NCBI GenBank assembly: GCA_016937175.1
Contig: JAFGWL010000011.1
Coordinates: forward strand, 1 to 57,184
Direction: 5' to 3'
DNA: 57,184 nucleotides
DNA from: Candidatus Mcinerneyibacteriota bacterium
Lineage (GTDB): Bacteria > Macinerneyibacteriota > Macinerneyibacteria > Macinerneyibacteriales > DSCS01
Position 1 is the first letter of the stretch. Each line of letters starts with the position of its first letter. This document shows positions 44,096 to 53,741 of the stretch, one piece after another. Under the pieces are notes generated by a model that had not been told where the DNA came from, searched no databases, and worked only from the letters and a program-made list of their open reading frames with translations. The translations under genes were made by a program, and so were the position numbers.

Positions 44096-44505
44096 ACGGG
44101 AAAAAAGTGGAACTACCCTGCTACATGAGCCGTCATGCCGCGGGGATGGATGTGCGCGCTGCCGAGCCCAAAGAGATCCCTCCGGGGAAAACAGCTCTTG
44201 TCAGGACAGGGCTTTTTGTCGAAGTCCCTCCCGGGTATGAGCTTCAGGTCCGGCCCCGCAGCGGGCTGGCTTTGAAACACCGCCTTCTCATTCCTAATGC
44301 CCCGGGCACCATCGATGCCGATTATCGGGGGGAAGTGGGGATCATCCTTATGAACGGCGGCGACGAGCCTTTTTTCATAGAAATTGGCGATCGGGTGGCT
44401 CAGCTTGTTTTGTGCCGGGTCTATGAAGCCCGCTGGGAAGAGTGCGACGAGCTGAACGAGACCGGCCGGGGCGGGGGAGGTTTTGGGCACACCGGGACGA
44501 AATAG
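44059..44505 (+). CDS. dut: dUTP diphosphatase
   Basis: 148 residues from ATG 44059, the usual trimeric dUTPase length. Motifs: AAGMDVRAA (1), RPRSGLALKH (2), GTIDADYRGEVG (3), RVAQLVL (4) and RGGGGFGHTGT (5). It removes dUTP and supplies dUMP. An earlier in-frame ATG (44008) would add 17 residues inside the M16 gene and is not preferred. It overlaps the M16 gene by 37 nt and the UbiA gene by 23 nt. Confidence 0.95.
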   Translation: MEKITIRVFRDINGKKVELPCYMSRHAAGMDVRAAEPKEIPPGKTALVRTGLFVEVPPGYELQVRPRSGLALKHRLLIPNAPGTIDADYRGEVGIILMNGGDEPFFIEIGDRVAQLVLCRVYEARWEECDELNETGRGGGGFGHTGTK

Positions 44506-45313
44506 ATCCGCTGCCATCTTCAGATTGATCCGTCCCCTGAATCTGGGGATCATCTTCCTTTCCTTTCTCCTGGCCTTTCATCTGGCTGAAGGGCCTCTTT
44601 TAAACAGAGACTTCATACTGATCGCTGCGTGGCTTTTTCTGGCCGCTGCGGGGTATGTCTTCAATGACATCAGCGACAAAGAGGCCGATCAAGTGAACCG
44701 TCCCGAGCGTCCCCTTCCCGGGGGATTTCCGCCCCGGGAGGCCATGCGCCTTTTGATCATTCTCGCTTCGGCGGCTTTTCTCCTGGCTTTGTTTCTTCCT
44801 TTTCCCCTCCTTCTTTTGACCCTGCTTGTGGGCTCTCTTCTGTATCTCTACAGCCGTTTGCCTGCTAAAGGCCCTTTTCTCGGAAATGTAGCCGTTGCTC
44901 TGGCCACAGCTTCTCCTTTCCTTTCTGTGATCCTGTCCCGGGGATACACTCCGCTTCTGGGGCTTGCTTTTCTCTTCTCCTTTATCATCATATGGATGCG
45001 GGAGATCGCCAAGGATTTTGAGGATATGGACGGAGACCGGAGAGCCGGGCGGAGGACTCTTCCCTTGACAGCCGGGCGGAAGCGAGGGTTTCTCGTTCTT
45101 TGGGTGTTGACTTTCATTTTAGCGGGATTTACAATGTGGGGGAGTCTCACAGTACGGGAGACAGGAGTTTATGCCCTTGTGATCATGGGCGGGGTCAATC
45201 TCTGCAATGCCGGGGGGCTGATCTCCATGAGAAGGGGGCTGTACCGGAGAGCGTCGCTGGTTTATAAATTATCCATTCTCTTGGGGATGGGAGGATTATG
45301 GCTGTCCGTATAG
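44483..45313 (+). CDS. UbiA prenyltransferase, DGGGP synthase-like
   Basis: 276 residues from TTG 44483 (GGGGGAGG upstream, inside dut). About eight membrane helices and both aspartate-rich motifs: NDISDKEADQVNRPERPLP (NDxxDxxxDxxNxPxRP; about 53-71) and DFEDMDGDRRAGRRTLP. The family attaches isoprenoid chains to acceptors. The GGGP synthase, GGR and ferredoxin genes next door make (S)-2,3-di-O-geranylgeranylglyceryl phosphate synthase, adding the second chain, the best guess. Quinone or haem prenylation is the main alternative. Confidence 0.8.
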   Translation: MGTPGRNRSAAIFRLIRPLNLGIIFLSFLLAFHLAEGPLLNRDFILIAAWLFLAAAGYVFNDISDKEADQVNRPERPLPGGFPPREAMRLLIILASAAFLLALFLPFPLLLLTLLVGSLLYLYSRLPAKGPFLGNVAVALATASPFLSVILSRGYTPLLGLAFLFSFIIIWMREIAKDFEDMDGDRRAGRRTLPLTAGRKRGFLVLWVLTFILAGFTMWGSLTVRETGVYALVIMGGVNLCNAGGLISMRRGLYRRASLVYKLSILLGMGGLWLSV

Positions 45314-45504
45314 ATTATGGGAGATGTATTTCCTGCGGGGGATGTGTGGCTCTCTGTCCCCGGGGAGCACTTCAGATGAAGTCTTTTCACCTGACTCTGG
45401 TTTCTGAACGCTGCAATGATTGCCGTTTTTGTGTCAATGCCTGTCCCGTAGGCGCCCTCTGGCCCGGTATTCCTGACTATGGGGAGGATTATGAGACATT
45501 TTGA
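45298..45504 (+). CDS. 2[4Fe-4S] ferredoxin
   Basis: 68 residues. Two cluster motifs: CISCGGCVALCP (first at about residues 8-19) and CNDCRFCVNACP (about 37-48). It transfers low-potential electrons. It overlaps the UbiA gene by 16 nt and the reductase gene by 14-26 nt. Archaeal geranylgeranyl reductases can use a ferredoxin, so it is probably the electron donor for the next enzyme. ATG 45298 follows GGGAGGA. Confidence 0.92.
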   Translation: MAVRIDYGRCISCGGCVALCPRGALQMKSFHLTLVSERCNDCRFCVNACPVGALWPGIPDYGEDYETF

Positions 45505-46657
45505 TGTTCTGGTCGCCGGTGCAGGCCCTGCAGGTTCTCAGGCGGCGCGGGTCATTGCTGAAAAGGGGTTTTCTGTCGCATTGCTGGAAAAGCGCCAGGA
45601 AGTGGGAAGCCCTGTCCGTTGCGCCGAAGGGGTCAGTGAAAAGTGGCTTTTGAAACATACAGGGGTGGAAGAACCCTGGATCGAGGCTGAAGTCAGAGGC
45701 GCTCTTTTACGTGCCCCTGACGGAACCAAAGCTGTGATGCATTATTCAGAAAAGGGTTATATCCTCGACCGGGCCCGGTTTGACAGAGACCTGGCCTGGA
45801 AAGCTGCCGACTGCGGGGCCTTTCTTCTGACCCGTGCAGCGGTGACGAAGGTCCTTCCCTATGAAGAGTTCTTTATTGTCCGCACAGACCATCCTCTTCA
45901 TCAGGAGATCAGGGCTACACTTTTGATCCTGGCAGATGGGATCGAGTCCCGGCTGGCTGCTCAGCTTGGAGTCAGGACGACACTGGCGCCGTCCGACATT
46001 GAGATGTGCCTTCAATACACCTTAGAGGGGGCTCCGCATGAGGAGGGGATGATCGAGATGGCCGGGGGGAATGAGATCGCTCCCGGAGGATATGCATGGA
46101 TCTTTCCCAAAGGAGGAAACCGGGCCAATGTGGGCCTGGGGCTTTTGGGAAGCCGTTCCCGGGCGGGATTCAACGCACGTTTTTATCTGGACCGTTTTGT
46201 GGCAGGACGTTTCCCGGATGCTTCAGTGATAAGGACTGTAGCAGGAGCCGTCTCTGCATCAGAACCCCTTGAAGAGGTCTGCGGAGAAGGCTTTATGATC
46301 GCCGGGGATGCCGCCAGATTGGCGAACCCCCTTACCGGCGCCGGTATCGGCAATGCCCTGGAGTCGGGGGCTTTGGCAGGAGAGACAGCTGTACAAGCCC
46401 TGAAAGCCGGAAAGAGAGACCGGGACTCCCTCGAACCCTACAAACAGAAGCTCATGCGTTCCATCGGGAACACATCCAAAAAGTTTTATCGGATCAAAGA
46501 GCCATTTGTCAAGTTTACGGATGAAGATATCAATAATATGATCAGAATCGTATCCAAGATCGATCCCAGCCGGGTGACCGTAGCCGGGATCCTGGAAGCC
46601 GCGTTCAAGGAGAACAAGGCGGTCCTTGCTCTCATCAGAAAGGCTTTTTTTTCATGA
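45491..46657 (+). CDS. geranylgeranyl reductase-family flavoprotein
   Basis: 388 residues from ATG 45491; ATG 45479 (four residues longer) lacks a binding site. FAD motif VAGAGPAGSQAARVIAEKG, then GSPVRCAEGVS (PxxC-type active-site segment), APGGYAWIFPKGGNRANVGL (YxWxFPKG) and FMIAGDAARLANPLTGAGIG. This is the archaeal-lipid/chlorophyll GGR family, which saturates polyprenyl double bonds. In context it would hydrogenate the chains of the ether lipid. ATG 46654 of the next gene overlaps its stop. Confidence 0.88.
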   Translation: MRHFDVLVAGAGPAGSQAARVIAEKGFSVALLEKRQEVGSPVRCAEGVSEKWLLKHTGVEEPWIEAEVRGALLRAPDGTKAVMHYSEKGYILDRARFDRDLAWKAADCGAFLLTRAAVTKVLPYEEFFIVRTDHPLHQEIRATLLILADGIESRLAAQLGVRTTLAPSDIEMCLQYTLEGAPHEEGMIEMAGGNEIAPGGYAWIFPKGGNRANVGLGLLGSRSRAGFNARFYLDRFVAGRFPDASVIRTVAGAVSASEPLEEVCGEGFMIAGDAARLANPLTGAGIGNALESGALAGETAVQALKAGKRDRDSLEPYKQKLMRSIGNTSKKFYRIKEPFVKFTDEDINNMIRIVSKIDPSRVTVAGILEAAFKENKAVLALIRKAFFS

Positions 46658-47394
46658 GCACCCTGGAAAGAAGAGTGAAAGAAGCCCGGAAAGAGAAGAG
46701 AAAGCTCCTGTGGGTTCTTATGGACCCGGACAAGCAGGAGCCGGAGAAAGCCGGGGAGTTTGCCTGTACCTGCGAGAAAGAGGGCGTCGACCTCATCCTT
46801 GTGGGAACGAGCCTGATGATGGAAGAACGTTTCCATGAGACGATCCGGGTGCTTAAGGATTTAGCCTCTCTTCCGGTCTATATCTTTCCAGCCTCTTCAC
46901 AGCAAGTCTCCCGTGATGCCGACGGGATCCTGTTTCTCAGCCTGGTCAGCGGACGTAATCCCCAGTTTCTCATAGAAGAGCATGTGAGAGCTGCCCCTCT
47001 GATACGAAAAGCCGGCCTGGACGCTGTCCCTACCGCCTACCTTCTCATCGATTCCGGAAAAGTGACTGCGGTCCATTACATGAGCCACACCTTACCTCTT
47101 CCCCGGGACAAGGAGGATATCATCGCTGCCCATGCCATGGCGGCAGAAATGCTGGGAATGAAGATGATCTATCTGGAGGGGGGGAGCGGGGCCCGTGAGG
47201 CTGTCCCCGGAGCTCTTATTAAAGCTGTCCGCAGCAGCGTGGAGATACCGGTGATCTGTGGAGGGGGGATCGATACTCCGGAAAAAGCCCGTCTGGCGGT
47301 TGAAGCCGGAGCCGATATAATCGTAGTAGGAACGGCCTTTGAACGGGATAATAGGGCGGGTCACATTCAGGCCTTCAGGGAAGCTTTGGGATGA
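46654..47394 (+). CDS. geranylgeranylglyceryl-phosphate synthase
   Basis: 246 residues, a TIM-barrel of the GGGPS/PcrB family. LLWVLMDPDKQEPEKA binds the glycerol phosphate region; YLEGGSGAREAV and IPVICGGGIDTPEKARLAVE then ADIIVVGTAFE are the diagnostic C-terminal motifs, closest in pattern to group II GGGPS. It joins sn-glycerol-1-phosphate to a polyprenyl diphosphate, the step that sets archaeal lipid stereochemistry. The chain length cannot be read here. Overlaps the GGR gene and the GT2 gene by 4 nt each. Confidence 0.9.
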   Translation: MSTLERRVKEARKEKRKLLWVLMDPDKQEPEKAGEFACTCEKEGVDLILVGTSLMMEERFHETIRVLKDLASLPVYIFPASSQQVSRDADGILFLSLVSGRNPQFLIEEHVRAAPLIRKAGLDAVPTAYLLIDSGKVTAVHYMSHTLPLPRDKEDIIAAHAMAAEMLGMKMIYLEGGSGAREAVPGALIKAVRSSVEIPVICGGGIDTPEKARLAVEAGADIIVVGTAFERDNRAGHIQAFREALG

Positions 47395-48476
47395 ATATAA
47401 TCCTTGTCGCCGGAGGTGTCCTTCTTTTTTTTTATCTTAGCGCTCTGCTTTTTCTTGCAGCAGGGGTTGTGATCAACAGGCGGAATACAAAAAAAACAGC
47501 TTCTCCTCCTGGTCTTTCTCTCATTGTCTGTGCCCGGAATGAAGAAGAACATCTTCCCGCACTCCTCCGGGCTCTCAAGGAACAGACTTTTCCCTTTGAA
47601 CCCATCTTCGTAGATGACAGGTCCACAGACGGGACAAGGAGACTTATGGAGGGTTACCCCGGAGCCGTGGTTATCTCCCTTAAAGAGGAGGAGGGAGTTT
47701 TTCAGGGAAAGAAAAGAGCCCTGGCCCGGGGCATTGAAACTGCAGGTGGAGATGTCCTTCTGCTCACGGATGCTGACTGTATCCCCCTTCCCGGATGGGC
47801 TGAAGGCATAGCTTCTCTCTTTTCAAAGGAGACGGGGCTGGTTGCCGGAGGAGCCCTCTATAGGGAAGAGAAGTGGTATCACCGGCTTATGAACCTGGAG
47901 ATGCTGGCTTTAGCTGCCTGTTCAGAAGGAGCTCTGGGATGGCAGGCTCCTCTTCTTGCCACCGGGAATAACCTGGCTTACCGCAGGGATCTCTTCTTTA
48001 AAGCCGGCGGTTTTCAGGGACTCGAGGAAATCGAGACGGGCGACGACGACCTGATGATCCAGCGGTTGGGAAAAGAGGGTGGGGGGCGTTTCTCCTTTGC
48101 CTGGCAACCCGAACTGTTCGTGAGGACGAAGGCCCAGCCCTCACTGCGCGCTTTCATCCATCAGCGGGCCCGATGGGCCTCGGGGGTGTTTCACTGGGGC
48201 CTCTCCGTCCGGCTGGCTCTCGGAGCGGTCTACCTTCTCTATCTTCTCTATTTGATGTCTCCTCTGGGTTTATTGATTCCGGGCCTTGGAACGACTATAA
48301 TAACAGGATGGGGTGTGAGTGCCTGTATAGAACTTCTTTTTCTTGCCCTTGCCCTGAAGGGTTACGGAAAGCTTTCCGCCCTTGTCTGGTATCTTCCGGC
48401 GCGGCTGCTCTTTGTCCCCTATCTCCTGGTTATGCCTCTCTGGGCGTGGGCGGGGGGTTACCGGTGGAAAGAGTGA
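47391..48476 (+). CDS. membrane glycosyltransferase, GT2 (first)
   Basis: 361 residues. N-terminal membrane helix (about 4-27), GT-A domain LSLIVCARNEEEHLPALLRA, FVDDRSTDGT, LLTDADC (DxD), TGDDDLMIQRL and FIHQRARWASG (QxxRW), then three or four C-terminal helices. The QxxRW motif marks membrane GT2/GT21 enzymes working at the lipid interface. Probably adds sugar to a lipid acceptor; here the nearest candidate is the ether lipid. Starts 4 nt inside the GGGPS gene. Confidence 0.88.
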   Translation: MNIILVAGGVLLFFYLSALLFLAAGVVINRRNTKKTASPPGLSLIVCARNEEEHLPALLRALKEQTFPFEPIFVDDRSTDGTRRLMEGYPGAVVISLKEEEGVFQGKKRALARGIETAGGDVLLLTDADCIPLPGWAEGIASLFSKETGLVAGGALYREEKWYHRLMNLEMLALAACSEGALGWQAPLLATGNNLAYRRDLFFKAGGFQGLEEIETGDDDLMIQRLGKEGGGRFSFAWQPELFVRTKAQPSLRAFIHQRARWASGVFHWGLSVRLALGAVYLLYLLYLMSPLGLLIPGLGTTIITGWGVSACIELLFLALALKGYGKLSALVWYLPARLLFVPYLLVMPLWAWAGGYRWKE

Positions 48477-48498
48477 CGGGAGAGAGGAGGCCGAAAGA

Positions 48499-49506
48499 AT
48501 GATATTTCTCTCTTTTCTCTACTTCTTTGTCTTTCTTGTCCTGGCCTTGGCTGTCAAAGCCTATCCTGTGAAACGCCGCCACCAGAACCTCTTTTTTTCT
48601 GTTATCGTCCCTTTTCGCAATGAGAAGCGCTACCTTGAGACCCTTTTGGATTCTCTGAAAAAACAGAGCCATCGTATGCGGGAGTTTATCTTTGTCAATG
48701 ACCATTCGGAAGACGGGGGTGATGAGCTTCTTTCAGGGGAGGAGCTGACCCTTCTCCATCTTTATGACGAATACGGCAAGCTGGCGGCTTTGGCCAAAGG
48801 GAGCCGTGTGGCCAACGGAGAGTATCTCGTTTTCTGCGATGCCGATTGTAAGCCCCGGTGGAACTGGCTTGAGACCCTCAACAAAAGAGTCCATGACGAT
48901 GCCGTCCTTTTTGCGGGTTTTATTGAGATCGAGGGGAGCCCTTTTTTTACCCTGGATATGTTCATGCTTATCGGCATCGCTGCGGGCCTGGATTTTTTCA
49001 GGATCCCCTCAAGTTGTGCCGGAGGGAATATCGTGGTCCGACGGGAAATCTATGAGGCCTTCCTGGATGAAGTAGACGGGGAGAATTCCCTCACAGAAGA
49101 TACCCTGCTGCTTCACACCATCCATAAGAAGGGATGGGGGGATTCATTTTTCTTTTTTGACCCGGACACGGTGATCAAGACCCGAGGCTATGCTACGGCC
49201 GGCGAGTTTGTCCGGCAGCGGATCCGGTGGCTCAAGGGAGGATACCGCCTGGATCTCCGCCTTTTTGTCTTTCTTTCCTTTATCTTTGTCTCTCACCTTC
49301 TTTTTCTGCTGCATCCCCTCTATCTGATCCCGGCAGCAGCGGGACAGTTTATTTTTTTGAGGACTCTGCTTAAACGGTTTCACCGGAGAAAGCTTCTCTA
49401 TCTCTTTCCCTTTTACTTCTTCTTCCATGTCATCTATACCATAGTTTCAGGAATCCTCTTTCTCTTCCTTTCGGGCGAAGTCGAATGGAAGGGACGTAAA
49501 TACTGA
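48499..49506 (+). CDS. membrane glycosyltransferase, GT2 (second)
   Basis: 335 residues from ATG 48499 (AGGAGG at 48485-48490); a start at 48382 would overlap the first GT by 95 nt and is rejected. It has an N-terminal helix, FSVIVPFRNEKRYLETLLDS, FVNDHSEDGG, FCDADCKPRW (DxD), LTEDTLLLHTI, VRQRIRWLKGG (QxxRW) and C-terminal helices. Same architecture as its neighbour but only distantly similar in sequence, so it likely adds a different sugar or linkage. Confidence 0.87.
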   Translation: MIFLSFLYFFVFLVLALAVKAYPVKRRHQNLFFSVIVPFRNEKRYLETLLDSLKKQSHRMREFIFVNDHSEDGGDELLSGEELTLLHLYDEYGKLAALAKGSRVANGEYLVFCDADCKPRWNWLETLNKRVHDDAVLFAGFIEIEGSPFFTLDMFMLIGIAAGLDFFRIPSSCAGGNIVVRREIYEAFLDEVDGENSLTEDTLLLHTIHKKGWGDSFFFFDPDTVIKTRGYATAGEFVRQRIRWLKGGYRLDLRLFVFLSFIFVSHLLFLLHPLYLIPAAAGQFIFLRTLLKRFHRRKLLYLFPFYFFFHVIYTIVSGILFLFLSGEVEWKGRKY

Positions 49507-49516
49507 AAGGAGATCA

Positions 49517-50164
49517 ATGGATCCTGCCATGATCATAACCCTCGGGGTTGCTGTCTATCTGGGATGGTCCTGGGCACTCACGCTGAAGAAAAAGAAATGC
49601 GCTTCTCTCTATTACAGGCCGCAGTCCGGGTTCGTCACCATTACCATCGACGATGTCCCCTCTGAATCCCTTGATGAGATACTGGAGTTGCTGGCCCGTT
49701 TCGGAGTCCGCGCCTTATTTTTCGTGAACGGATCCCGCTGCCGTCCTGACGGAGCCGGCGTCAAAGAGATCCTTGCTGCAGGACACACGGTGGGGAACCA
49801 CTCCTTCAGCCACTACTTCTTCTATCCGGTCTCAACCCGTGTGATCATCAACGACCTGGAACGCAATGAAGACCTGCTGGCATCCTTCGGAGTCTCCAGC
49901 CCCCCTGTCAGAACACCGCACGGTTATCATACCTGTTCCCTTGTGCGCTATCTTCATAAGAAAAAGACGCCCTTTTGTCCCTGGGATTTTATGCTCTGGG
50001 ATTTTCTCCCTCTTCCCCAGTGGGCATTAAGACGAAGCCTTGTCAGATTTATCCGGAAAGGGGGAGGGGTCTTATGCATGCATGCCCGGAAGCGTTCAGT
50101 CAAGGTGCTTGCCTTTCTCCTGGATATGCTTTATCCTGAGATGAAGGAGGATGACCAGCAATGA
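49517..50164 (+). CDS. polysaccharide-deacetylase-fold protein
   Basis: 215 residues. An N-terminal helix (about 5-21) is a signal anchor. The NodB-fold motifs are FVTITIDDVPSESLDEIL (motif 1, the DD pair), GNHSFSHYFF (HSxxH, motif 2), RTPHGYHT and VLCMHARKRSV (C-terminal His). The enzymes remove acetyl groups from N-acetyl sugars. With the two GTs it may deacetylate the sugar head group. Overlaps the next gene by 4 nt; AAAGGAG precedes the ATG. Confidence 0.87.
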   Translation: MDPAMIITLGVAVYLGWSWALTLKKKKCASLYYRPQSGFVTITIDDVPSESLDEILELLARFGVRALFFVNGSRCRPDGAGVKEILAAGHTVGNHSFSHYFFYPVSTRVIINDLERNEDLLASFGVSSPPVRTPHGYHTCSLVRYLHKKKTPFCPWDFMLWDFLPLPQWALRRSLVRFIRKGGGVLCMHARKRSVKVLAFLLDMLYPEMKEDDQQ

Positions 50165-50517
50165 AGACCGGTTCGCTCTATGCCATCCCCTATAAAGGGG
50201 GCTATCTGGCTTTTAAAGTCTTTGCCGTGACACTTACAGATGAGGCCTCCATCATCCATATCACACTCTACGCTGCGCTGTTCGACAGTCCTGAGGAAGT
50301 GGCGGTGACCCGTGAGACACCTCTTTTCCTGGCTCATCTTCCCATACGGGAGGAATTTCTGGCTCCTCACGCCACCCTCGTCTCTGAGGGGGATGTCTAT
50401 TCTGACGAGGAGCAGATCTATAAAAACTGGCTGGCCGAATGGAACGAAGGCCTGGCTTCTATCTGCTCTATCCCCCTGGGAGCCCTGCTTGATGAATTGA
50501 TCTCTGCGAAAGGGTAA
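50161..50517 (+). CDS. hypothetical protein of the lipid cluster
   Basis: 118 residues, unknown. No signal peptide or membrane helix; mixed alpha/beta character (LYAIPYKGGYLAFKVFAVTL, IHITLYAALFDSPEEVAV, ending IPLGALLDELISAKG). It begins 4 nt inside the deacetylase gene and ends 9 nt before the DedA gene, so it belongs to the operon. Nothing in the sequence allows a function. Confidence 0.7.
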   Translation: MKTGSLYAIPYKGGYLAFKVFAVTLTDEASIIHITLYAALFDSPEEVAVTRETPLFLAHLPIREEFLAPHATLVSEGDVYSDEEQIYKNWLAEWNEGLASICSIPLGALLDELISAKG

Positions 50518-50526
50518 GCTCTCTGA

Positions 50527-51144
50527 ATGGAACTGCTGCTTCTGAAACTGATAGCCATCATCGGGTCTGTCTCCTATCTGGGGCTCTTTATTTTTATTGC
50601 CTTTTTTTCATTCCTGGCGGTCTCTTCGGAATTTGTCCTCATCGGGACAGGTGTTTTGGTCTCCCGGGATATCATCCACCTCTTTCCGTCGATACTTGTG
50701 GCTTATGCTGCTGTCATCGCCGCAGACCTTCTGGCCTATTTCATCGGTTGGGGGATGCACCACGGTTTGAAGAGGATCTCTTTTTTGAAGAAAGTGCTTA
50801 ATCAGGATAGCCTCTATTTCGGCCGCCTCTGGTTCAACCGTTACGGGGTGATGTCCATTCCCGTGGCCCGGTTCATTATGGGCATCCGCTTTCAGACCTT
50901 TGTCTTTGCCGGGATCATGCGCATGGATCTCCGAAAATTTCTCCTTTATGATTCCCTGGCAAATCTCCTTTTTACCCCTCTTCTGGTCTTTCTGGGATAT
51001 AAGATGGGAGATAAGATCGTGGCGCTTCTTTCCGGATTCAAAACTCATCCCGTCATCGGGATAGCGGCGATGATCCTGTTCATTGTGGGATTTCCCCTGG
51101 CGTCAAAAATGCTTCGTAAGAAGACCTTTAAACAGGATCAATAG
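50527..51144 (+). CDS. DedA/VTT-family membrane protein
   Basis: 205 residues with about five to six hydrophobic segments. The DedA pattern includes AADLLAYFIGWGMHHGLKR, PVARFIMGIRFQTFVFAGIM and RKFLLYDSLANLLF. DedA proteins include undecaprenyl-phosphate and phospholipid flippases or scramblases. At the end of this operon a lipid-flipping role fits. The start lacks a close Shine-Dalgarno site. The last 7 bases overlap the convergent gene. Confidence 0.82.
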   Translation: MELLLLKLIAIIGSVSYLGLFIFIAFFSFLAVSSEFVLIGTGVLVSRDIIHLFPSILVAYAAVIAADLLAYFIGWGMHHGLKRISFLKKVLNQDSLYFGRLWFNRYGVMSIPVARFIMGIRFQTFVFAGIMRMDLRKFLLYDSLANLLFTPLLVFLGYKMGDKIVALLSGFKTHPVIGIAAMILFIVGFPLASKMLRKKTFKQDQ

Positions 51145-53741
51145 AAGAGTTTGTTAATAGAAAATTCCAAAACAGGCCTCTTTTCAGCTTCTTTGAGGTC
51201 TGTCTTATGGGAGAAGGTCATATCGATGTTCATATTCTGCCCCAGATGAAGCGTAACACCGTAACCGAAGGAGGCCAGAGGGTCAGCCAGGTGTCTCTCT
51301 TCTGTCCAGGTGACTTTTGACAGATCATCAGTAAAGAGCCCCATATCCCCGAAAAGAAAAAGAGAGAGGGGGGGCAGCTGAAAGGGCTTTCTCCATCCCG
51401 GAAGGATCCAGATCATGGGGCTTCGGACTTCCATATTAGCCATGAGTTTATAGCGCGCCGGGAAATAGGTCTCCCGGTATCCTCTGAGATAGTTGTCATC
51501 CCGGTAGGATGAAGGAGAGTCCTGATAGAAAAGGCGTAGCATAAAGGGCATGAAATAGAAACGGACATCGGCCTGGAGCTCTGTCTTTGTCTCAGAACCG
51601 AAGGTAAGCCCACCGTAGAGGAAGGCCCTGATCCCGTAATCAGGATAGAGCCGCCCGTAGGCTGTGTCTCTGATATAAGCCAGCCCGGCATAGGGCCGTG
51701 TTTTTTCTCCCTTGCCCAAAAATCCTTCGAGCCGGACCCCTCCCTGGAACATCATACTCTCTGTCAGGGAGAAGGGCCAAAGGACTTGCCCCGAAAGCTG
51801 TGACAGATTATATTCTTCGCTGTTTCTGTGAACAGTCGATTTCTCCAGAGTGGCAAGATAAGAGGGCCTGTTCCCTGATCTCCGGTAGTAGAGTCCGAAA
51901 TCCAGCTCCCCGGAGCCGTTGACATGATACCCCATGACAAAGAAGAGCTGATTTTCATTGAGGATGCTGTCCATGGCCATGCCGGTGGAGAGACGGACAT
52001 ATTTGTTTTCGGTAATGTCCACACCATAAAGAAGCCCGCCCAAGGTGAGTGTATCCACAAAGTTTTCAGGCTCAAAGTCGCTTGTATCATAATAGACAGC
52101 ATCAGTCAGATCCGGGGCTGAATAGACCTGTCCTCCCTCTTCCCGGGCTCCCAGCTGCGGCAGGGGAGTGAGAGCCGGGATGATCCTTCCGTCGGCATAA
52201 ATATAATGGACGAGACCGTGATCGGTGAAACCAAAGTCGAGAACGGTCTCTCTTGTCGCCGTAAAGTTCTGAAACGAATGGTCTTTGCGGTTATAGTGAC
52301 AGAGGATATTATCCTTTCCCCGGGTAAGGAGAAGAAAGATCGAATCTTCAGAAAAGGGAGCTGCGGAAAGGAGGGCTCCGTCCACGGAGAAGATACGGTT
52401 CCCGTCGTGGAGGTAAGTCTGCCCTCCCACCGTATTGAAAAAGATGTCGTCAGCCTCCATCTTGACCCAGGCATCGGCCTGATCCACGGGGATATTCACT
52501 CTTTGGAATCTCTTTCCCTGCAGAATGAAGCCCGCTGCCTTCATCCCCTCTTTAGTAAGAAGGTGGAGGCGGTTGTTATGATAGAAGATCCTTTTGACGT
52601 CCGTCACATCGGGAAGGGGAACGCTTGTCACCGTGCGGGTGAAAAAATCATAGATCCCCGTATGGTAGCGGCTGTTCTTGTAAAAAACAAAGGCAAATTT
52701 TCCGCGGTCCTGCGACAGGGACATGGCGCTTCTGTCGGTGAGAAGAAGGGTGAAAGGGGAGGGGGTGTAGAGGATTTCCCTGTACTCGTCGTCGTCAATG
52801 ATCCTGCGCACAAGAGACCCGTTTTCAGCTGTGATATAAAAATGCTCCCCAGGGAAGACGAAAAGTGCCCCTTGAGGAAAGAGGCGGGTCTCCTGGGAAA
52901 AGAGCGTCGGACGCTGAGAAGCCCAGGCCTGGACCTCAGAGTTAAGGGCTTCCCTCCAGCGATGATAGAGTGTGGGGAAATCAAGTCCGTAAACGGTTTT
53001 GAGAGCTTCCTCTATATCAAGGCGCATATTGAGTTCTTTCAAAAAATCATCCATCTGATATTCCGGGTAATGGGTGTAGAGGTAACTGACCAGGGAGTGA
53101 GCCTCCTGGTATCCCAGATAGTCGATGGTCCCGGCCTTTTCGAAATAGGCAGGGTCATGGATACGGCCGTAAAGGACAGCATCTTTGAGGACCATCCATT
53201 TGGGGTTTTTCCAGTCGCCTGCTGCGTGTTCAGACAAACCCTCAAAGATCCATGTGGGGAGGCTCATCTTTTCGGCAAGAAGGCCGGCCAGGGGATTTTT
53301 CAGAAAAGCATGATACTGGAATATATGCGAGACCTCGTGGTAGATGAGTTCCCGGAAATAGGTGACATCTCCGTTAAAAGGGATGACCACACGGTCTTTT
53401 TTGAATGTAGCGAACCCGCCTACGTTGGGAGGAAGGATGGCCGGGACAAGCTGAGTCTGGGAAAACATCTGGGGCGAGGGATAGAGGATCAGATAGATGG
53501 GGTTGTCGATCTCATGCGTAAAGATGTCATTGTTGAAATCGTAAGCGTCTTCAGAGAACTGGGCCGTCAGGGGAAGCAGATATTCATGGCCTTGCATATA
53601 GAGAATGCGGAAGTGCTCTGTCTTGACTTCGATCCATTTGATGTTTTCCGGGTAATACTTGTTTTTAAAAAAAGAGGTTCCGAAAAGAAGGGGGGTAAAA
53701 ATCGAGAGAAGCAAAATGAAAATCAGTCCTTTTTTCAGCAT
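51138..53741 (-). CDS. outer-membrane protein with gluzincin-like domain
   Basis: 867 residues. Signal peptide (about 1-22); a peptidase-MA-like domain with LIYHEVSHIFQYH (HExxH; about residues 133-145) and WIFEGLSEHAAG (third ligand Glu); a beta-propeller-like middle (about 280-520) with repeats such as FFNTVGGQTYLHDGNRIFSV; and a C-terminal BamA-type barrel ending EFSINKLFY, with terminal Tyr. Probably a surface-anchored zinc protease or processing factor; the target is unknown. The stop overlaps the DedA gene by 7 nt. No Shine-Dalgarno is seen upstream of its ATG. Confidence 0.8.
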   Translation of the reverse strand: MLKKGLIFILLLSIFTPLLFGTSFFKNKYYPENIKWIEVKTEHFRILYMQGHEYLLPLTAQFSEDAYDFNNDIFTHEIDNPIYLILYPSPQMFSQTQLVPAILPPNVGGFATFKKDRVVIPFNGDVTYFRELIYHEVSHIFQYHAFLKNPLAGLLAEKMSLPTWIFEGLSEHAAGDWKNPKWMVLKDAVLYGRIHDPAYFEKAGTIDYLGYQEAHSLVSYLYTHYPEYQMDDFLKELNMRLDIEEALKTVYGLDFPTLYHRWREALNSEVQAWASQRPTLFSQETRLFPQGALFVFPGEHFYITAENGSLVRRIIDDDEYREILYTPSPFTLLLTDRSAMSLSQDRGKFAFVFYKNSRYHTGIYDFFTRTVTSVPLPDVTDVKRIFYHNNRLHLLTKEGMKAAGFILQGKRFQRVNIPVDQADAWVKMEADDIFFNTVGGQTYLHDGNRIFSVDGALLSAAPFSEDSIFLLLTRGKDNILCHYNRKDHSFQNFTATRETVLDFGFTDHGLVHYIYADGRIIPALTPLPQLGAREEGGQVYSAPDLTDAVYYDTSDFEPENFVDTLTLGGLLYGVDITENKYVRLSTGMAMDSILNENQLFFVMGYHVNGSGELDFGLYYRRSGNRPSYLATLEKSTVHRNSEEYNLSQLSGQVLWPFSLTESMMFQGGVRLEGFLGKGEKTRPYAGLAYIRDTAYGRLYPDYGIRAFLYGGLTFGSETKTELQADVRFYFMPFMLRLFYQDSPSSYRDDNYLRGYRETYFPARYKLMANMEVRSPMIWILPGWRKPFQLPPLSLFLFGDMGLFTDDLSKVTWTEERHLADPLASFGYGVTLHLGQNMNIDMTFSHKTDLKEAEKRPVLEFSINKLFY

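Follow-up and report, generated by a model that had tools for sequence, protein, structure and literature searches.

The window analysed here, a stretch of 57,184 nucleotides, is one contig of the 1.88 Mb genome (98.7% complete) of a member of the small candidate phylum Mcinerneyibacteriota (G000), and it carries nine co-oriented genes for a UbiA-family prenyltransferase, a ferredoxin, a geranylgeranyl reductase, GGGPS, two GT2 glycosyltransferases (GT-a and GT-b), a NodB-fold deacetylase, a 118 amino acid (aa) protein and a DedA-family protein (Table 1). The intergenic gaps across these genes are, in order, -16, -14, -4, -4, 22, 10, -4, and 9 bases, the stop of GGGPS being overlapped by the start of GT-a, and a Shine-Dalgarno-like sequence precedes several of the starts. 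For GT-b we have used the ATG at 48499, which has a good Shine-Dalgarno sequence, in place of the upstream TTG given in the ORF list. The five ORFs that the initial annotation described directly 3' of GGGPS are all present in that order, as judged from ORF coordinates and Pfam matches, and its gene list holds with one omission, viz. the ferredoxin gene between UbiA and the reductase, which overlaps both of these genes.

Table 1. Genes of the operon and the sequence features by which they were assigned (positions in the window).
Gene product	Position	Strand	Evidence
UbiA-family prenyltransferase	44483..45313	+	PF01040, 1e-32; motif NDISDKEADQVNRPERPLP
2[4Fe-4S] ferredoxin	45298..45504	+	two CxxCxxCxxxCP motifs; present in 3/3 genomes
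Geranylgeranyl reductase family	45491..46657	+	PF22578 GGR_cat; TIGR02032 above cut-off
GGGPS, group II type	46654..47394	+	PF01884, 1e-39; TIGR01769 above cut-off
GT-a, membrane GT2	47391..48476	+	Pfam Glycos_transf_2, 2e-21; DxD, QRARW
GT-b, membrane GT2	48499..49506	+	Pfam Glycos_transf_2, 4e-20; CDADC, QRIRW
NodB-fold (CE4) deacetylase	49517..50164	+	PF01522 Polysacc_deac_1, 5e-19; conserved motifs
118-aa soluble protein	50161..50517	+	function unassigned by Pfam; found only in the three Mcinerneyibacteriota genomes among 386 genomes
DedA (VTT) family membrane protein	50527..51144	+	Pfam VTT/DedA PF09335, 1e-12

The GGGPS protein scores 181 bits against the TIGR01769 cut-off of 161.6, which places it within this family, and among solved structures 4jej and 4mm1 are nearest to it. 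The UbiA protein belongs to its fold family by Pfam, and its best NCBIfam match is geranylgeranylglycerol-phosphate geranylgeranyltransferase at 117 bits, below the equivalog threshold of 296; from this resemblance it is likely to be a DGGGP synthase. Members of the geranylgeranyl reductase family saturate isoprenoid chains, and the ferredoxin is the probable electron donor for this saturation. Together, GGGPS, UbiA, and the ferredoxin-fed reductase would build an isoprenoid diether core. Two results count against an ether-lipid product: the operon encodes no lipid phosphatase, and CarS was not detected in any of the three genomes of the phylum that we have compared, with control genomes giving a positive signal. 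No G1P dehydrogenase could be established and no convincing candidate was seen in these phylum genomes; the PF13685 matches that were examined for this role proved to be glycerol or alcohol dehydrogenases. CarS and G1PDH are likewise missing from Ca. Cloacimonetes, whose GGGP and DGGGP synthases yielded an archaeol-type lipid in E. coli (PMC7852524). The Mcinerneyibacteriota genomes also encode PlsC-family acyltransferases and a PgsA-PgpA fusion, and bacterial phospholipids are therefore likely. The fusion (phosphatidylglycerophosphate synthase plus phosphatase), of 334 residues, is encoded in the window's own genome at L189:988-1992 and has matches of equal length in the relatives.

Conservation of the operon and occurrence of similar gene sets

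The three genomes of the phylum that were compared are that of the window, a second from the same genus (G001), and that of Ca. Mcinerneyibacterium aminivorans (G002), which belongs to the same order but to another family. The genes from UbiA through the 118-aa protein are found in identical order in all three genomes, and hence in two families, with identities to G002 of 34% for UbiA, 42% for the ferredoxin, 51% for the reductase, 56% for GGGPS, 40% for GT-a, 43% for GT-b, 38% for NodB, and 30% for the 118-aa protein. That this order recurs in another family, where the proteins encoded 3' of GGGPS through the 118-aa protein (the cassette) share 30-43% identity, indicates that it is not due to chance. 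A DedA gene follows that of the 118-aa protein in G000 and G001 only. The conserved block also spans nusA, infB, truB, ribF, rpsO, pnp, and dut upstream and one convergent gene downstream, after which it ends. Since the synteny extends to unrelated housekeeping genes, the positional argument for an ether-lipid acceptor is weakened. Within the window, the lipid genes form the 3' end of a long rimP-nusA-infB-rbfA-truB-ribF-rpsO-pnp-dut block (31943-53741); Ca. Mcinerneyibacterium has the same gene order here, with different flanks on both sides. The product of the convergent gene (51138-53741) is a Peptidase_MA_2 protein whose C-terminus shows a weak Omp85-like match; the gene is found beside the lipid operon in 3/3 genomes.

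The comparison of GGGPS neighbourhoods proposed in the initial annotation is borne out within the phylum, where the GT2-GT2-NodB order is kept in 3/3 genomes and DedA in 2/3, but not beyond it. In 16 GGGPS-bearing genomes from outside the phylum, blastp and profile searches of the several kilobases fetched around GGGPS revealed UbiA, reductase, GT2, NodB, or DedA in none, which counts against the proposed ether-lipid head-group pathway. Tandem GT2 pairs resembling GT-a and GT-b are present in several GGGPS-bearing genomes (L160-L164), where they do not adjoin GGGPS. A GT-b-like GT2 is found in 8 of the 16 GGGPS genomes and in 2 of 79 without GGGPS (Fisher p 4e-6, with related lineages counted as independent), and because of this counting we have set the co-occurrence aside as evidence.

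Sets of comparable composition have been identified in other phyla. One genome (G157) contains a run of GT2, LPG_synthase_TM flippase, GT2, NodB, and GT2 genes, and a similar set occurs in another (G009), in both instances away from GGGPS (L169, L179). In an unrelated genome (G385), genes for DedA, NodB, and diglucosyl-diacylglycerol-synthase-like proteins overlap head to tail (L223:7182-9969); here HexS- and HexD-type proteins are accompanied by DedA in the place of HexF, and the set is possibly a HexSD unit in which DedA serves as the transporter. These sets support the reading of the window's genes as a cassette with DedA as its transporter. The initial annotation had held that occurrence of the gene set in relatives without GGGPS would speak against its proposal, and this is in part what we observe: GT2-NodB-flippase and DedA-NodB-glycosyltransferase sets exist without a GGGPS link, so that the case for the head-group chemistry is stronger than that for the ether-lipid acceptor.

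The same observations bear upon the possibility that a de-N-acetylated amino-sugar glycolipid is formed on diacylglycerol or phosphatidylglycerol, the adjacency of GGGPS reflecting a common membrane-lipid operon and no shared substrate. The presence of PlsC and of the PgsA-PgpA fusion makes ordinary diacylglycerol lipids possible acceptors, which counts against the operon's own ether lipid in that role; the HexSDF and GpgSDF systems compared below use ordinary lipids, and the GT2-NodB sets of other genomes do not adjoin GGGPS. However, GGGPS and GT-a overlap by four bases and the joint order is kept in 3/3 genomes. Both facts argue against this explanation, which we regard as unlikely.

Glycosyltransferases, deacetylase, and putative transporter

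Both glycosyltransferases have intact DxD, GDDD or TED acid, and QxxRW motifs, which are kept in the relatives. GT-a has one N-terminal and three C-terminal transmembrane (TM) segments. Across GT-a and its wider family, 32 sequences with Cloacimonadota, Fibrobacter, Poribacteria, and Bacteroidota among their sources, the aspartates that bind the nucleotide, the DAD motif, the acid of GDDDL, and the arginine of RxxRW are all retained. The structure model of GT-a (mean pLDDT 90) can be superposed along almost the entire chain on cellulose synthases, on hyaluronan synthases (Z 26-30), and on the archaeal mannosyltransferase PcManGT (Z 26), and a predicted fold that is shared in this manner cannot separate lipid acceptors from polymers. 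Over residues 12-264, from the first TM segment to the RxxRW region, the sequence profile of GT-a can be aligned to ceramide glucosyltransferase; this enzyme is absent among the structure matches listed for GT-a, to which we give no weight either way. GT-a scores far under the HpnI cut-off. No MGDG-type diacylglycerol glycosyltransferase was found in the three phylum genomes, with control genomes giving a positive signal, and we have counted this in favor of lipid glycosylation by the GT2 pair.

The deacetylase possesses all of the CE4 motifs, with IDD45-46, H95/H99, RTPHG132-136, and H189 invariant, and its IDD, HSxxH, RTPxG, and C-terminal H are conserved in the relatives. It has a single N-terminal TM segment with no positive charge ahead of it, and the segment is followed by a KKKK or RKRK flank in G000 and G001 and by a weaker positive flank in G002. 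Simple hydropathy and charge counting under the positive-inside rule predicts that the N-terminus lies outside and the catalytic domain in the cytoplasm, the opposite side from the extracytoplasmic catalytic domain of the PgdA type, and this predicted placement would speak against a peptidoglycan deacetylase. Among 27 NodB matches examined outside the phylum, one adjoins a GT2 gene and one a DedA gene, and hence similarity to NodB by itself is uninformative on the substrate.

The combination of GT2 and NodB proteins is also the theme of the Ica, Pga, and Nod systems. This occurrence in polysaccharide systems counts against a lipid product and raises the possibility that the product of the window's pair and its deacetylase is an amino-sugar polymer or oligosaccharide, deacetylated in part, of the PNAG or Nod-factor type. 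Hyaluronan synthase is the closest structure to GT-a, and weak PgaC and NodC profile matches point in the same direction. However, GT-a and GT-b score 33.8 and 49.1 bits, respectively, against the PgaC/IcaA cut-off of 422 bits, the predicted cytoplasmic orientation of the deacetylase differs from that of IcaB and PgaB, and no polymer-export partner is recognized in the operon; a polymer product consequently appears quite improbable.

Sequence comparison gave the 118-aa protein no match in Pfam or NCBIfam and no credible one in the PDB; only one of its five structure models is confident, with no Foldseek match at E <= 0.001. The DedA protein is a member of its superfamily (VTT domain, 48.8 bits against a gathering score of 33.9), with E35, R115, and R121, including the R(x5)R pair, invariant in both sequences; a profile search found no solved structure for it. 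It is the sole DedA-family protein in G000 and in G001, whereas Ca. Mcinerneyibacterium aminivorans has none at this locus, a fact counted against a role in the pathway, and a single DedA elsewhere in its genome that looks like the TVP38 type. The status of sole DedA by itself would favor a general role with undecaprenyl phosphate. A DUF368/PopT transporter is, however, encoded elsewhere in G000 and G001, so that the operon DedA is not needed for undecaprenyl phosphate, which is permissive evidence only. Movement of the lipid across the membrane, as suggested in the initial annotation, is accordingly compatible with DUF368 leaving DedA free, is set back by the absence of DedA at the G002 locus, and is the weakest step of the scheme; that DedA moves the operon's glycolipid product is a tentative assignment, which we rate at somewhat below even.

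A related possibility is that these genes act on undecaprenyl phosphate, through synthesis of a sugar-phosphate carrier, its deacetylation, and recycling by DedA, in a manner resembling ArnC/ArnD. The DedA protein, the only one in the genome, matches the UptA model at 7e-17, but at 62 bits against an equivalog threshold of 250. Furthermore, both glycosyltransferases have QxxRW, the membrane domain of GT-a is cellulose-synthase-like and not of ArnC or GtrB architecture, the operon contains no ArnT-like transferase, and G000 and G001 both encode DUF368/PopT, UptA-group DedA proteins being reported to be rarer where DUF368 is found; we therefore consider this possibility very improbable. That the genes are functionally unrelated and merely share a long housekeeping transcript would suit a conserved block which begins at the nusA operon and ends beyond the cassette, but the catalytic logic fits known synthase, deacetylase, and flippase cassettes and GT2-NodB-flippase sets recur independently, which makes it highly improbable.

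A putative head-group pathway and its relationship to known systems

In the reading that we prefer, GT-a and GT-b would transfer two sugars to a lipid at the cytoplasmic face, an N-acetylhexosamine coming second or, in the reverse order, first; the acceptor may be archaetidylglycerol or, once dephosphorylation has taken place, archaeol. The NodB protein, held in the membrane by its anchor, would deacetylate the amino sugar on this same face to give a cationic glycolipid, which DedA would equilibrate across the membrane. The analysis establishes the gene content, the operon structure, the integrity of the catalytic motifs, and the conservation across the phylum; the acceptor, the nature of the sugars, the sequence of reactions, the substrate of DedA, and the part played by the 118-aa protein are inferred. 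Lipid glycosylation followed by N-deacetylation, as proposed in the initial annotation, is favored by the analogy to HexSDF and GpgSDF, the predicted cytoplasmic NodB domain, and the GT-a fold, and by the proven precedents of HexSDF with UgtA, GpgSDF, and HpnI/HpnK. Its ether-lipid acceptor is argued from position in a conserved block shared with housekeeping genes, and both points are counted against it. It is quite probable that a membrane lipid receives a deacetylated amino sugar through the action of the cassette genes. From operon position, the chances that the isoprenoid ether lipid of the operon itself serves as the acceptor are evenly balanced, and we would give equal weight for and against the operon as a whole making an isoprenoid diether lipid with a de-N-acetylated amino-sugar head group by a synthase, deacetylase, and flippase cassette. 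The fullest form of the proposal, in which a single operon yields an archaeal-type diether bearing an amino-sugar disaccharide by the first dedicated head-group pathway for bacterial archaeal-type lipids, in which DedA transports the glycolipid and the 118-aa protein is a new accessory factor, is rather unlikely.

The locus places candidate head-group enzymes for archaeal-type lipids beside the core enzymes in a little-known bacterial phylum. The predicted product is measurable, consisting of the ether core with a hexose and a hexosamine, positively charged and with a mass 42 Da below that of the N-acetylated precursor, and if the proposal is true, DedA proteins would gain a substrate other than undecaprenyl phosphate.

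Among known systems, Ca. Cloacimonetes and other FCB bacteria resemble the window in having GGGPS, DGGGP synthase, and reductase alongside bacterial lipid genes, CarS not being found; the part of that report drawn on here describes head groups made via CDP-archaeol and names no glycosyl cassette, whereas the window holds core and cassette genes in one operon (PMC7852524). HpnI and HpnK, which act in the synthesis of bacteriohopanetetrol glucosamine, likewise carry out glycosyl transfer and then deacetylation on an isoprenoid membrane lipid, but their acceptor is a hopanoid and there is no transporter (PMC12583986). The C. difficile pathway starts from monohexosyl-diradylglycerol, the product of UgtA; HexS attaches an N-acetylhexose, HexD takes off the acetyl group, and a role as flippase has been proposed for HexF (PMC10128005, PMC11898633). 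This system shares with the window two successive lipid glycosyl transfers, an enzyme of the polysaccharide deacetylase family, and a membrane transporter, and its product is aminohexosyl-hexosyl-diradylglycerol (PMC10128005, PMC11898633). It differs in that HexS is an MGDG-type glycosyltransferase, HexF is MprF-like, and isoprenoid ether-lipid genes are lacking, where the window has GT2 and DedA proteins. In P. aeruginosa, GpgS and GpgD do likewise on phosphatidylglycerol, with transfer of GlcNAc to the lipid, a predicted cytoplasmic deacetylase, and GpgF as a predicted flippase in third place; the proteins are of the GT4, COG3233, and AglD2/YbhN types, respectively (PMC12713373). Set against this synthase, deacetylase, and flippase arrangement, the window has a GT2 pair adjoining NodB, with motifs intact, of a glycosyltransferase family other than those of HexS and GpgS and with a putative lipid acceptor, and its transporter is a DedA protein (PF09335) and not an MprF/YbhN-type (LPG_synthase_TM) flippase. 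The best reading, by analogy, is that the cassette represents the same parts as HexSDF and GpgSDF drawn from other glycosyltransferase and transporter families; we have not filed it as a member of this class, yet it may work in the same way.
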